Below are positions 58,508 through 63,052 of a stretch of 64,000 nucleotides of DNA, in pieces. Each line of letters starts with the position of its first letter. The stretch's first letter is position 1. The notes beneath the pieces are model-generated. The model had not been told where the DNA came from, did not search any database, and was given only the letters and a program-made list of their open reading frames with translations. The position numbers and the translations under genes are program-made. This DNA is from Treponema sp. (GTDB lineage Bacteria > Spirochaetota > Spirochaetia > Treponematales > Breznakiellaceae), in contig WQXU01000001.1 of NCBI GenBank assembly GCA_009781635.1, positions 1-64,000 of the forward strand. The letters run 5' to 3'.

Positions 58508-61500
58508 TTATTCAATTCCTAAATAATCTTTAATATATTCTCTGTATTTTAATGCTTTGTTATAATACTCAATATTATCTGTTAATTGATACACATATTC
58601 CTGCACATTACATATTTCATCATAATGTTTTTTTTCATTAATCTTTTTTGTAACACTATTTGTATGACGTCTGTGGATATTCAAATTATCAGATATAAAT
58701 GCAATTTTCTTGTTATCCTTTAATAAATTTATATAAAATAACCAGTCACCTGCAATATTATATTTTTCAATTTCATTAATATTTTCCAATAAATTATTAT
58801 TTTTAAAAATAACTGCCGAAGCATTAGGAATTGTATTTTTTACTGAAAATCTTTTTTCAATTTCTTCAATTCCCTCACTTATATAATCAGATTCCCATTT
58901 ATTATCTATTTCATCTGTATAAAAAAGATAATTATCATTTAATAATTTTCCATTTTCATCAATTATTTTTGATTGCGAATATCCTATTACTATATCTTCT
59001 TCCGATAATATTTTATTTATTACTTTTTCTATAAATTCAGGCTCTGATAAATCATCAGCTTCTGCAATCCATATATAGTCACCGCTGGCTATCTTAATAC
59101 CTTTTGCCCATTGTTTAAATACATTTCCGCTGTTTTTTTTATTATTTATTACTTTTATTCTTAATTTATATTTTAACTTATATTCATCAATTATCTGTAA
59201 GCTATTATCCGAAGAAAAATCATCTAATATTATTATCTCAAATACAGGATATGTCTGATTTAAAACCGATTCAATACGCTCTTTTAAATATCTTTCATAA
59301 TTGTAGTTTGGTATTATTACGCTTATTTTTTTATAATTAAATTCAAATAATTCCATTAATCTATACAAATATGTAATAAAATTAAATTTTTCATTTATTA
59401 AATTATTTGAATATTTTCCCATTTCATATCGTAAATTATTTTCTCTTAATATTTTTATTATTTCATCAGACATTTTTTTTGTATTTTCCATTGGAACAAT
59501 ATAGCCATTATTTTTATTAATTATTTCAACATACCCTCCTCCGCCTTCAAATGCAATTACAGGAAGATGTGAATACATTGCCTCAAGAACAACACTGGGG
59601 AAAGGATCTTCTCTTGATGTAAGTAAAAATATATCTGCAGCGCTGAAGTACATCATGTTATCTTCTTCCCATTTCTTAGTTAGAATTAAATATTCCTTAT
59701 ATTTACTTTCGTTAATTATTCTATTAACTTCATTCTCAATATTTATTTCTACATTACCAATCCAAATAAAATATGTTTTTTCATATTTACATACTTCAAT
59801 CATACATCTGGCAAATAAATCAAGACCCTTTCTATGATCGCCATAACCAACACCCAAAATTATTTTACTGTCAAGAGGAATATTATGCTTTTTACGCACA
59901 ATAGAACGAATCTCATTACGTCTATTGATATAAGGATTTTTTTTATATAAACCCTGTGGCAGAATAACTGTTTTTTCTTCAGGGATATCAATCATATTTT
60001 TATTATCATTTTTTACATATTCTGAAGCGTATATAATTTTAACAGCATTATCTACTATATACTTCAGTTTTTGTTCACAATTGTAATGGTGTATTATTTT
60101 TTCCATCTCATGAATTAATGAAATGCAATTAATACCGCATTTTGTTAAAGTATGTAGTACATCACCTGTAACAACAGTATTACATATTGCAATATCTGCT
60201 TCTGTTGTTTCTATCCAATTTATAATTTCATTTTCATCATATTTATCCAGACAGATTACTTCTTTTGCAATATCTTTATAATTATCTAAAAGAGGTCCGC
60301 CACTTTTCAGTATCAAATATACATCATATTTAAAAACATCTTTTAATTGCTTAATTATATTAAGAGCCAATAATTGCGCCCCATTTTGATATGCATCATG
60401 GCCGGCAAATATGATACTCTTTTTATTAAATTCATTTTCATTATTTGTTTTTTTCTTATTATCAAACTCAATTTCAAATATTGCTTTTGAGAATGTATTT
60501 ATATTTGCATAGCCATATTTTTTATCAGGCTCTAAATATGTTCCTTCCGCCCATTCATTCCATGCATTAATAAAAATAAAAGCTTCATCCTCTGAATATT
60601 TTATCTTTGCTTCTTTTGTTATTATATATACCCATTCATAAAATATCTCTAAAGAATAATTAATAAATGTTGTCCATTCATTTTCTTTTCTTGCTGCATT
60701 ATCCCATGCTAACATACATGTACGATATAGCGGCAATTTATCATAATTACTTTTTTTAATTTCTTTTTTAATATTATTTATAACATGTTTAATTGTTTTA
60801 ATATAATCAAATATATAGGCTTTTTTCCCATTCAATTCAATATTCTTAAAATTAATACTGAAAAGCATATGAGGAGGAAACTCTATTTCAGCATCTACAC
60901 AATCAGCAATATTAAGATTATACGGATTATGATTAAACGTACTGCACATCCATATTTTTATTTCTCCAATACCAGTCTCTATTGCCGCTTTCCTCCATCT
61001 TATAAATACTTCTTTTACATTTTGAACTTTGCCTGAATTATATACAATTATAACAGGTTTATTATCTACTCTTATATATCTTTTATCTACTATGTATTTT
61101 TTTATATCATTTATAAATTTTTCCGGATCATTTTCTTTATACCCCTGCCACATTAATACTTCATTATCCATTCCATCCCATGTTCTTGTCCAATTTTCAT
61201 TGGCCCAGCATAAGCAAAAATTGATATTTATATCCGTGTTCTCTAATAATATATCTAAAGGTTTTTCTAAAAGACGTTCTCCTGAAAACCAGTAATAATA
61301 AAAGCAAAAGCCATAAATTCCGTGTTCTTTTGCCAATTTAACCTGTTTTTTAATACTTTCAATATTTGTTAAATTATAGTATCCAAAATCTTTATGCGGC
61401 TCTCTTGGCTGATAATGACCTTTAAATCTTGGCTCTGTCTTCTTTGTATTAGTCCATTCTGTAAAACCCTTACCCCACCATTTATCATTCTCCGGTATTC

Positions 61501-63052
61501 TGTGAAATTGAGGCAGATAAAATGCTATTGCTTTAACATTTGGCTTATTATTTGAATAATCTATATTTTTTTGATATTCACAGTCATAATAAACTGTATC
61601 ATCAAGATAATTATCTGTTTTTTTATTCTTTTTTTTATTTTGCAAATATACAGATATTCTGTTTTTTGTCTTTTTAATTCCGTATCTTTTTAATGAAACT
61701 ATACTCTTTGCAAAAAGAAATAAATATTTATTTTTCCGTATTAATTTTGCAATACTTCTTAATGGTTTTGTTATACGCCATGATCTTGAATTTAATAATG
61801 CATTCCTGTCTGTTAAAATTAAATTACATTCATTTATTAGATTATTTTTAATAGATATAAGTTCATTCTTTTCTGTAATTATTTTTTCTTGCTCTGATAT
61901 TAATTCTTTATTATTTATCTTATATTCTTCATATTCTTCAAATATTTTCTTTATTCTTGATAATATTTCTATATCACTATTATTATATCTGTATATTGTT
62001 CCTGATATCCTTATTTTATTTACCTTTAATCCACTTAGATTAATAATAATCTGCGGATCAAGCGTATCAAAAATAATAATATTATCTATTTCTTTTCCGT
62101 TTGAGTATTCATGATCAATTTTACCATTATTTGCTATAATTTTTATATTTTTTATTACACATGCATAACCTTCATATGGATCAAACCTAATTTTTTTAAT
62201 TTCTTTAGATATTTTTATTTTTACTTCAAACTGATTTTTATATCTGTAAAACGGAATTTCAACTTGCTCATTTTTATTAAAACCAAATCCTGTATCAAAA
62301 TATATATTACAAGTTCTATTCCAGTTATTTTTTATTAAATCCTGAACTTTCAGGCTGTCTTTATTTTCAATATAATAATTCTTTTTAACACATTTAAATA
62401 TATATTGAAATACATTAGCAGACTCTCTATTTTCAAGAATTTCTGTATTACCATTTATATCATTATAATTACATTTTATTTCTGTTTCTTCAGGATTAAG
62501 ACATACAGCATCCTCTATAACAGGATACAACGAACATGCTTCCAGCATTTTTTTTATTGATTTGTATGTAAAAAACCTTAAATGTGTTTTATCTAATAAA
62601 CCCGAATTTGTATATTCAAAATTATTCTTTATTAAATTAATAATAATTGCGCTGTGTGCAATATTTGGTATAGATATTAAGATACTACCATCATCTTTTA
62701 ATAATGATACTGATTTTTCCAATATCATTACAGGATCTATAAGGTGTTCCAATACATCCGCAAATAAAATATGATCAAATTTAATATTTTTTAATTCTTT
62801 TATCCATAATAAATCATTAATATTTGCGCATATGCCTTTAACAGCATATTTTACGGCGCTTTTATAGGCATCCTTATCTATCTCTATAATATATACTTTA
62901 CAATTTAATTCATTTTTTAAATATTCTGTCATTCTGCCATATGCAGGCCCAAATTCCAATACAGTTGAATTTGGCTTTATATTTTTTATTATTTTCCATT
63001 CACTTGAATTTTCATTATTACTGAGTTGAACTTTATATTGATTAATTGACAT
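58508..63052 (-). CDS. 1514-residue methyltransferase / WbsX / GT4 / GT2 fusion
   Basis: Order of domains: SAM methyltransferase (about 20-190: VLEFGPAYGRMTEYL, ILFADVLEHLIDPV); a beta-sandwich (about 245-355: IYFDTGFGFNKNE, IRFDPYEGYACVIKNI); a coiled coil with NSRSWRITKPLRSIAKLI (about 365-445); a WbsX-type module (about 505-840: AFYLPQFHRIPENDKWWGKGFTEW, INAWNEWAEGTYLEPD); a GT4 glycosyltransferase (about 877-1235: GVGYGDHRKGLDLFARCM, FPSVVLEAMYSHLPVIAFEGGG); and a GT2 glycosyltransferase (about 1242-1470: SVIIPNYNYERYLKERIESVLNQTYP, IAEADDLSEPEF). It would build several linkages of one glycan and perhaps cap it by methylation. No membrane segment. Confidence 0.9.
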   Translation of the reverse strand: MSINQYKVQLSNNENSSEWKIIKNIKPNSTVLEFGPAYGRMTEYLKNELNCKVYIIEIDKDAYKSAVKYAVKGICANINDLLWIKELKNIKFDHILFADVLEHLIDPVMILEKSVSLLKDDGSILISIPNIAHSAIIINLIKNNFEYTNSGLLDKTHLRFFTYKSIKKMLEACSLYPVIEDAVCLNPEETEIKCNYNDINGNTEILENRESANVFQYIFKCVKKNYYIENKDSLKVQDLIKNNWNRTCNIYFDTGFGFNKNEQVEIPFYRYKNQFEVKIKISKEIKKIRFDPYEGYACVIKNIKIIANNGKIDHEYSNGKEIDNIIIFDTLDPQIIINLSGLKVNKIRISGTIYRYNNSDIEILSRIKKIFEEYEEYKINNKELISEQEKIITEKNELISIKNNLINECNLILTDRNALLNSRSWRITKPLRSIAKLIRKNKYLFLFAKSIVSLKRYGIKKTKNRISVYLQNKKKNKKTDNYLDDTVYYDCEYQKNIDYSNNKPNVKAIAFYLPQFHRIPENDKWWGKGFTEWTNTKKTEPRFKGHYQPREPHKDFGYYNLTNIESIKKQVKLAKEHGIYGFCFYYYWFSGERLLEKPLDILLENTDININFCLCWANENWTRTWDGMDNEVLMWQGYKENDPEKFINDIKKYIVDKRYIRVDNKPVIIVYNSGKVQNVKEVFIRWRKAAIETGIGEIKIWMCSTFNHNPYNLNIADCVDAEIEFPPHMLFSINFKNIELNGKKAYIFDYIKTIKHVINNIKKEIKKSNYDKLPLYRTCMLAWDNAARKENEWTTFINYSLEIFYEWVYIITKEAKIKYSEDEAFIFINAWNEWAEGTYLEPDKKYGYANINTFSKAIFEIEFDNKKKTNNENEFNKKSIIFAGHDAYQNGAQLLALNIIKQLKDVFKYDVYLILKSGGPLLDNYKDIAKEVICLDKYDENEIINWIETTEADIAICNTVVTGDVLHTLTKCGINCISLIHEMEKIIHHYNCEQKLKYIVDNAVKIIYASEYVKNDNKNMIDIPEEKTVILPQGLYKKNPYINRRNEIRSIVRKKHNIPLDSKIILGVGYGDHRKGLDLFARCMIEVCKYEKTYFIWIGNVEINIENEVNRIINESKYKEYLILTKKWEEDNMMYFSAADIFLLTSREDPFPSVVLEAMYSHLPVIAFEGGGGYVEIINKNNGYIVPMENTKKMSDEIIKILRENNLRYEMGKYSNNLINEKFNFITYLYRLMELFEFNYKKISVIIPNYNYERYLKERIESVLNQTYPVFEIIILDDFSSDNSLQIIDEYKLKYKLRIKVINNKKNSGNVFKQWAKGIKIASGDYIWIAEADDLSEPEFIEKVINKILSEEDIVIGYSQSKIIDENGKLLNDNYLFYTDEIDNKWESDYISEGIEEIEKRFSVKNTIPNASAVIFKNNNLLENINEIEKYNIAGDWLFYINLLKDNKKIAFISDNLNIHRRHTNSVTKKINEKKHYDEICNVQEYVYQLTDNIEYYNKALKYREYIKDYLGIE

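Follow-up and report, generated by a model that had tools for sequence, protein, structure and literature searches.

The window analysed here is a 64,000-nucleotide stretch of Treponema sp. DNA (assembly GCA_009781635.1, contig WQXU01000001.1, positions 1 to 64,000), and our subject is a 1514-residue open reading frame (ORF), P0001, which fills positions 58508 to 63052 of its minus strand. The original prediction, which gave no strand, had described this region as one 1514-residue chain combining a methyltransferase (MT), a beta-sandwich and the glycan-building modules WbsX, GT4 and GT2 (GT, glycosyltransferase). A check for assembly errors revealed a single frame with no internal stop, and the plus strand of the same interval is crowded with stops. 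From the N- to the C-terminus, the modules follow the order MT, beta-sandwich, heptad coil, basic SWRITKPLR segment, WbsX, GT4 and GT2, in agreement with the predicted list and order. The features of the ORF, all on the minus strand, are as follows.

58508 to 63052, minus strand: whole ORF P0001, 1514 amino acids (ORF and Pfam)
62348 to 63052, minus strand: putative methyltransferase domain, residues 1-235, with LEFGPAYGR at the usual position of the S-adenosylmethionine (SAM) loop (PF13489, PDB 3cc8)
61988 to 62302, minus strand: predicted beta-sandwich module, residues 251-355 (iterated hidden Markov model (HMM); AlphaFold2 (AF2) model, predicted local distance difference test (pLDDT) 91)
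61784 to 61969, minus strand: heptad-repeat helix or short coiled coil, residues 362-423 (period-7 hydrophobic signal)
61643 to 61783, minus strand: SWRITKPLR and a basic/hydrophobic segment, residues 424-470 (motif position, recurrence in relatives)
60458 to 61540, minus strand: WbsX module, residues 505-865, predicted GH99-like barrel (Pfam, profile, predicted fold)
60545 to 60556, minus strand: E833-W-A-E836, aligned with E333/E336 of BxGH99 (profile alignment; invariant in 75/75 and 45/45)
59342 to 60403, minus strand: GT4 (GT-B type) module, residues 884-1237 (Pfam; H885, D886, G891-Q893 and D1149/E1157 conserved)
58511 to 59335, minus strand: GT2 (GT-A type) module, residues 1240-1514 (Pfam; D1277/D1278, D1333/D1334 and D1436 conserved)

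A Pfam scan, in which the best family above its curated cut-off was taken for each module, assigned PF13489 to residues 25-172 (47.9 bits against a cut-off of 27), PF14307 (Glyco_tran_WbsX) to residues 509-852 (382 bits against 25.1, covering profile positions 2-348 of 350), PF00534, a GT4-type family, to residues 1052-1216 (84.5 bits) and PF00535, a GT2 family, to residues 1244-1375 (114.5 bits). The MT domain also matched PDB 3cc8, a putative methyltransferase, with an E value of 3.6e-21.

The GH99-type WbsX module and its cassette

The module named after a glycosyltransferase family resembled GH99 glycosidases. A profile of 75 WbsX modules searched against the PDB retrieved GH99 chains (5ngw, E 6e-7), and all nine rows were GH99 enzymes or endo-alpha-mannosidases, some of them carrying GH71 in the molecule field. 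For the AF2 model of the module (pLDDT 94), the first 37 Foldseek rows were GH99 or GH99-like structures, and VIA superimposed it on GH99 structures with Z scores of 22-25.5, the top match spanning 297 residues at a root-mean-square deviation of 3.2 and 16% identity; GH71-type entries ranked after these, at Z scores of 20.6 or lower. E833 and E836 align with E333 and E336 of the Bacteroides xylanisolvens enzyme BxGH99, which we take to be its catalytic pair and of which PDB titles mention Q variants, and both glutamates are kept in 75/75 WbsX sequences. The printed alignment of the best match, OpGH99A, does not contain the pair. WbsX is thus GH99-like in profile, in predicted fold and in both glutamates. 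Given this fold, the glutamate pair and the failure of our literature searches to find a WbsX assay, the label "glycosyltransferase" is unproven for this module. The original claim of at least three glycan-building modules agrees with the families of GT4 and GT2, whereas for WbsX the assignment as a glycosyltransferase is unsupported, its fold being that of GH99 glycosidases.

The distribution of the three C-terminal modules, hereafter the body, was followed in the best 80 of 589 loci from a genome-contig search, a sample ranked by similarity. A WbsX ORF was present in 80/80 loci, and WbsX, GT4 and GT2 were consecutive within one ORF in 43 of them. Among the sources named in their record titles were Firmicutes, Proteobacteria, Nitrospirae, Acidobacteria, Planctomycetes, Thermodesulfobacteria, Bacteroidetes and an archaeal metagenome-assembled genome (MAG). 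We aligned 45 bodies, comprising the window protein, the 43 tri-module ORFs and a body from genome G122. The WbsX glutamates were invariant (45/45), and the GT4 residues D1149/E1157 and the GT2 residues D1277/D1278, D1333/D1334 and D1436 were kept in 44 or 45 of the 45. Columns conserved at 90% or more numbered 110/361 in WbsX, 37/353 in GT4 and 42/275 in GT2, figures biased towards WbsX because the loci were chosen via patterns that included WbsX peptides. Pairwise distances of the three modules were correlated (r 0.64, 0.68 and 0.76; reached by 0/999 permutations), suggesting that WbsX-GT4-GT2 is a conserved cassette that travels largely as a unit. Among 145 other genomes of the lineage, a body was found only in G122 (38%), in a scan that scored the top few candidates per genome and may have missed distant copies; P0001 is thus no general feature of its lineage. 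The G122 body stands alone, without a head, next to Wzm and Wzt, and this Wzt of 437 residues gave a weak Wzt_C match (22.6 bits) under the cut-off of 30.4.

The head and its junction with the body

Although the predicted beta-sandwich (about residues 251-355) had no Pfam match, it was borne out by its all-beta AF2 model and by its recurrence in other proteins. The iterated HMM collected 20 distinct aligned copies, which follow MT, sulfotransferase, pyruvyltransferase or GT domains, and the module occurred in 10/392 genomes of the phylum sample, its own genome included. Comparison with solved structures gave no confident match, the best Foldseek E value being 0.012 and the best VIA Z score (5.8) lying below the noise level of the tool. 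Identification as a known carbohydrate-binding module (CBM) was thus dropped, although a CBM nature is still compatible with these results. Since an Ig-like domain at the same position in Klebsiella pneumoniae O7 ORF6 has been interpreted as a CBM (PMC11231755), glycan binding is a natural guess for the beta-sandwich.

Residues 362-423 carried a period-7 hydrophobic signal reached by 0/5000 shuffles, with none at periods 5, 6, 8, 9 or 11, in a test picked after looking at the sequence. In six relatives, the same test gave p values below 1/5000 in L064, L023 and L062, 0.007 in L081, 0.018 in L015 and 0.17 in L029. The SWRITKPLR motif starts at residue 424 and is followed by a basic, hydrophobic stretch; we propose that this segment may be a membrane-proximal anchor. 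An initial strict pattern of the motif matched 10/84 WbsX ORFs, upstream of WbsX in seven, and a loosened pattern, SWRxTxPLR, occurred ahead of WbsX in 13/54 eligible ORFs against a shuffled mean of 0.02, a count that is partly fitted, as the pattern was loosened after missed cases had been noticed.

The N-termini fused to this body differed among relatives. Among the 20 scanned (19 of the 43 tri-module ORFs and that of L082), nine held a Pfam domain above cut-off, namely a sulfotransferase in three, an MT in two, and a pyruvyltransferase, a sulfatase, a GT2 and a DUF4915 domain in one each; a further one held a sulfotransferase below cut-off, and ten were without any Pfam domain. In 18 tri-module loci WbsX began no more than 230 residues into the ORF, and in five of these the same-strand upstream gene ended in an SW[RK]-type motif. 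By Pfam, these upstream head genes encode an MT in L022, L031, L032 and L035 and a Capsule_synth domain in L018; L032 and L035 are both from Stenotrophomonas, and their upstream genes end in a variant motif. Stenotrophomonas, Lysobacter and Dyella carry head and body as two neighbouring genes. In genome G414, the head is a separate gene of 404 residues, 54% identical over residues 11-369 and ending in SWRITKPLRMIARFLRKK, and after it come genes for Wzm (51% identity with the Wzm of the window cluster) and a short Wzt (61% identity with its Wzt). In the polysaccharide cluster of G414 (L148 9535-13131), three consecutive genes of about 400 amino acids with CxxxCxxC-type motifs, radical-SAM-like, lie beside a PP-loop-like gene.

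Fused arrangements were also found, with MT, sandwich, coil, WbsX and RgpF in one ORF in L064 and an MT-sandwich-coil-GT2-GT2-WsaF protein in L054. The latter locus (10907-21065, a Roseburia MAG) additionally places a giant WbsX-RgpF protein next to this MT-sandwich-GT2-GT2-WsaF giant, so that a WsaF-type module occurs on the same kind of head. The search for split homologues that the original prediction had proposed therefore yielded a head alone (G414), a body alone (G122) and heads and bodies as adjacent genes (L022, L031, L032, L035). Judged by these fused, adjacent and split relatives, P0001 joins a head to a body at the SWRxTxPLR segment, both drawn from a family of interchangeable parts.

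The surrounding cluster and its Wzt

The gene lies in a cluster that runs from 50471 to about 91095 of its own contig, past the end of the window; the main genes of this cluster share the minus strand. The adjoining features within the window are the following.

63066 to 64000, minus strand: PF13704 glycosyltransferase, 469 amino acids, with a C-terminal beta-sandwich of the same kind; it extends to contig position 64475
56474 to 58501, minus strand: DUF6056 membrane-protein gene, whose last 70 or so residues resemble the beta-sandwich (E 2.4e-8)
50471 to 56473, minus strand: NDP-hexose 2,3-dehydratase, Gfo/Idh reductase, SDR, PgfS-like GT2, two EamA small proteins and RmlB

The cluster encodes RmlA-D, Glf, a UDP-sugar dehydrogenase, several GT2 proteins and a Wzm/Wzt exporter, the latter recognised as ABC2_membrane and ABC_tran genes. 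By this gene content, it is an ABC-transporter-type surface-polysaccharide cluster, a context that supports the original prediction in part. The guanine-plus-cytosine (GC) fraction is 0.248 in the 1514-residue gene, 0.266 in 50471-58507 and 0.239 in the next 11.7 kb beyond the gene, against 0.39-0.41 in the remaining window, which suggests that the cluster was acquired from elsewhere.

Several neighbours merit a record of their own. The NDP-hexose 2,3-dehydratase (516 bits; 55040-56473, minus strand) lies beside the Gfo/Idh and SDR genes and points to a 2-deoxysugar pathway, which is familiar mainly from antibiotic clusters. The PgfS/ArnC-like GT2, of the polyprenyl-phosphate type, and the pair of small EamA-type membrane proteins (51569-53155), together with the DUF6056 gene (56474-58501), all on the minus strand, look like a set that adds a side sugar at the outer face of the membrane. 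Beyond the window, a protein of 573 amino acids (contig 66735-68456, minus strand; L012 6735-8456) has a heptad-rich helix of about 330 residues and, after it, a domain that carries an ILEFGLGQSS loop and has no Pfam match; this domain looks SAM-binding, making the protein a candidate for a second long ruler/methyltransferase of the cluster. Next to it is a second giant multi-GT protein (GT2-GT2-GT4, 1483 amino acids; contig 68453-72904, minus strand; L012 8453-12904), with two near-identical repeats of about 110 residues near its C-terminus. Lipoprotein-like genes with CotH and lamin-tail domains (L012 14870-19451, minus strand) show a normal GC of 0.39 inside the low-GC cluster, and a NeuB-family gene (46231-47475, plus strand) lies on the opposite strand just beyond the cluster.

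The Wzt of the cluster has 245 amino acids and consists of the nucleotide-binding domain only, with no C-terminal cap-reading domain. Wzt_C (PF14524) was absent from the one genome searched, the protein's own, and a control search matched 2/14 named genomes. A Wzt-like ORF was present in the examined stretch of 39/80 body loci. Replacement of the cap-reading domain by the beta-sandwich was considered and found unsupported by Wzt lengths in ten sandwich-bearing clusters, of which five had a short Wzt only (our own, L077, L148, L153 and L154), four a long one only (L018, L054, L064 and L157) and one, L015, both.

Proposed function and characterised counterparts

We regard it as probable, with considerable reservation, that P0001 works in the cytoplasm as a multi-module enzyme assembling a surface polysaccharide that depends on an ABC transporter, with a body that builds the repeat unit and a head that methylates the glycan. 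GT4 and GT2 would each add one sugar of the repeat unit, and WbsX would act on a glycosidic bond by GH99-type chemistry, through either transfer or trimming. The head, composed of MT and beta-sandwich, would methylate the glycan, with the growing end as the probable site, and the short coiled coil and basic SWRITKPLR segment would hold it off the body, with the segment possibly seated at the membrane. The sequence shows the order of the modules, the conservation of their active sites, the cluster around the gene, the relatives in fused and in split form and the GH99 fold of WbsX. What we infer is that the chain is methylated at its end and not internally, that the protein is seated at the membrane, what chemistry WbsX performs and which sugars are used. 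By analogy with O7 ORF6 and WsaE, the body would polymerise and the head would methylate the end, which makes a methyl cap plausible.

Several observations weigh against this interpretation. With its 60 or so residues the coil is short, a stricter a/d-register test on P0001 was not significant, and the G414 head showed no clear heptad signal ahead of its motif (p 0.19). An MT occupied just two of the 20 fused N-termini scanned. Our searches of the literature on WbsX, GH99-like glycosyltransferases and GH99 in O-antigen synthesis found no WbsX assay or structure, and no paper linking GH99 to GT4/GT2 polysaccharide biosynthesis or O-antigen glycosyltransferases; most papers retrieved for the name WbsX concerned filarial antigens, and those retrieved through PF14307 dealt with glycosyltransferases in general. 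Finally, Wzt is without Wzt_C, whereas capped Klebsiella systems read the cap through this domain, which every terminated example is said to possess (PMC11231755). Control of chain length by a methyl cap, as originally envisaged, is not supported, with no cap-reading domain in the cluster Wzt or elsewhere in the genome, and with the methylation by WsaE reported as chain-length-independent in vitro (PMC2943079).

The strongest competing explanation, which we hold possible but less probable than the assembly model, is that the MT head decorates residues inside the repeat units or a side sugar, with chain length set otherwise, for example by export rate. Sulfotransferases, pyruvyltransferases and sulfatase-type enzymes commonly decorate repeat units, and such domains also occupy the head slot of relatives; a Wzt without a cap-reading domain is likewise found both here and in G414, where a close head is a separate gene. 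However, the distal enzyme ends the chain in characterised relatives of the same layout (PMC11231755), and WsaE is described as methylating the chain end (PMC2943079).

A second alternative, which we consider rather unlikely, is that WbsX adds no sugar and instead serves in the cytoplasm as a glycosidase, trimming or proof-reading a glycan that is still linked to its lipid. The GH99 fold, both catalytic glutamates and the position of WbsX as the most conserved body module agree with it, but Pfam names the family a glycosyltransferase, the module is found together with GT modules, and retaining glycosidase folds can also catalyse transfer. An artefact of sequencing or assembly that merged separate genes, the refutation named in the original prediction, is highly improbable and was rejected: some relatives do have separate genes for head and body, but the head-to-WbsX junction is fused in L064, the WbsX-GT4-GT2 junctions are fused in the 43 of 80 loci, including the isolates Stenotrophomonas maltophilia D457 and Romboutsia timonensis, and the frame is intact.

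Within the assembly model, the main question is the role of a GH99-type active site inside a polymerase. Modules of this family are frequent in the surface-polysaccharide clusters of bacteria, where they go by the label of glycosyltransferases, yet they have the fold and catalytic residues of a glycosidase family. We tentatively suggest, while doubting that it will prove correct in full, that WbsX is a GH99-scaffold enzyme using the glycosidase pair for sugar transfer or obligate editing in a cytoplasmic polymerase; WbsX-GT4-GT2 would then be a widespread polymerase cassette forming one linkage with a glycosidase-type site, to which an exchangeable head for capping or decoration (MT, sulfotransferase or pyruvyltransferase) is docked via an adaptor of the undescribed beta-sandwich, coil and SWRxTxPLR segment. 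If WbsX transfers sugar, it would represent a new route to glycosidic bonds in polymerases, and the readings of many clusters would be corrected; if it acts as a hydrolase, assembly would include trimming as a step not described before. The GH99 endo-alpha-mannosidases share the fold and E-x-x-E pair at just 11-16% identity, and these secreted or Golgi hydrolases are not GT-fused modules, whereas WbsX here is fused to GTs.

Judged by its modules, the layout varies on that of known machines for polysaccharide assembly. The proposed likeness to an O-antigen machine is supported in layout, which matches O7 ORF6 (PMC11231755) and WsaE (PMC2943079), but is unsupported in length control. Among the traits of coiled-coil terminator/polymerase systems (WbdD, WbbB and K. 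pneumoniae O4/O7), P0001 has an MT set beyond a heptad helix from the polymerising modules, as far as order alone can tell, and its cluster has Wzm and Wzt without the cap-reading domain; for this last reason we describe the protein as working like capping polymerases and do not file it among them. Further background on capping systems is given in PMC3898925 and PMC3482155. O7 ORF6, for which terminator and polymerase activities are reported, comprises an MT-kinase, beta-domain, coil and two GT modules (PMC11231755). Like P0001, it carries an N-terminal MT, beta-domain, coil and then polymerising modules in one chain, encoded in an ABC-transporter cluster with Rml genes; it differs in having a kinase between MT and beta-domain, for which P0001 has no room, and two GT2 modules in place of a WbsX-GT4-GT2 body, and the two beta-domains are likened by position and description only. 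In WbdD/WbdA of Escherichia coli O9a, a methylating terminator is similarly set apart from the polymerase by a coil, but there are two proteins, a kinase, a longer C-terminal coil region and a Wzt with a cap-reading domain (PMC3482155). WsaE of Geobacillus stearothermophilus, described as an MT with two rhamnosyltransferases performing terminal 2-O-methylation (PMC2943079), shares with P0001 an N-terminal MT and two GT domains in one chain, the ABC transporter, the rml genes and a low-GC cluster; it serves a Gram-positive S-layer glycan, a WbsX module is not among its described domains (PMC2943079), and the heads are likened by layout. In Burkholderia gladioli, a WbsX-named protein of more than 1,450 residues with further glycosyltransferase domains is encoded in an O-antigen cluster with Wzt, and its gene carried mutations in isolates that resisted phage and had a changed permeability of the outer membrane, which implicates it in O-antigen synthesis (PMC13391952). 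Set beside these systems, the window protein would take the cap-coil-polymerase layout outside the models known from Proteobacteria and Gram-positive bacteria.

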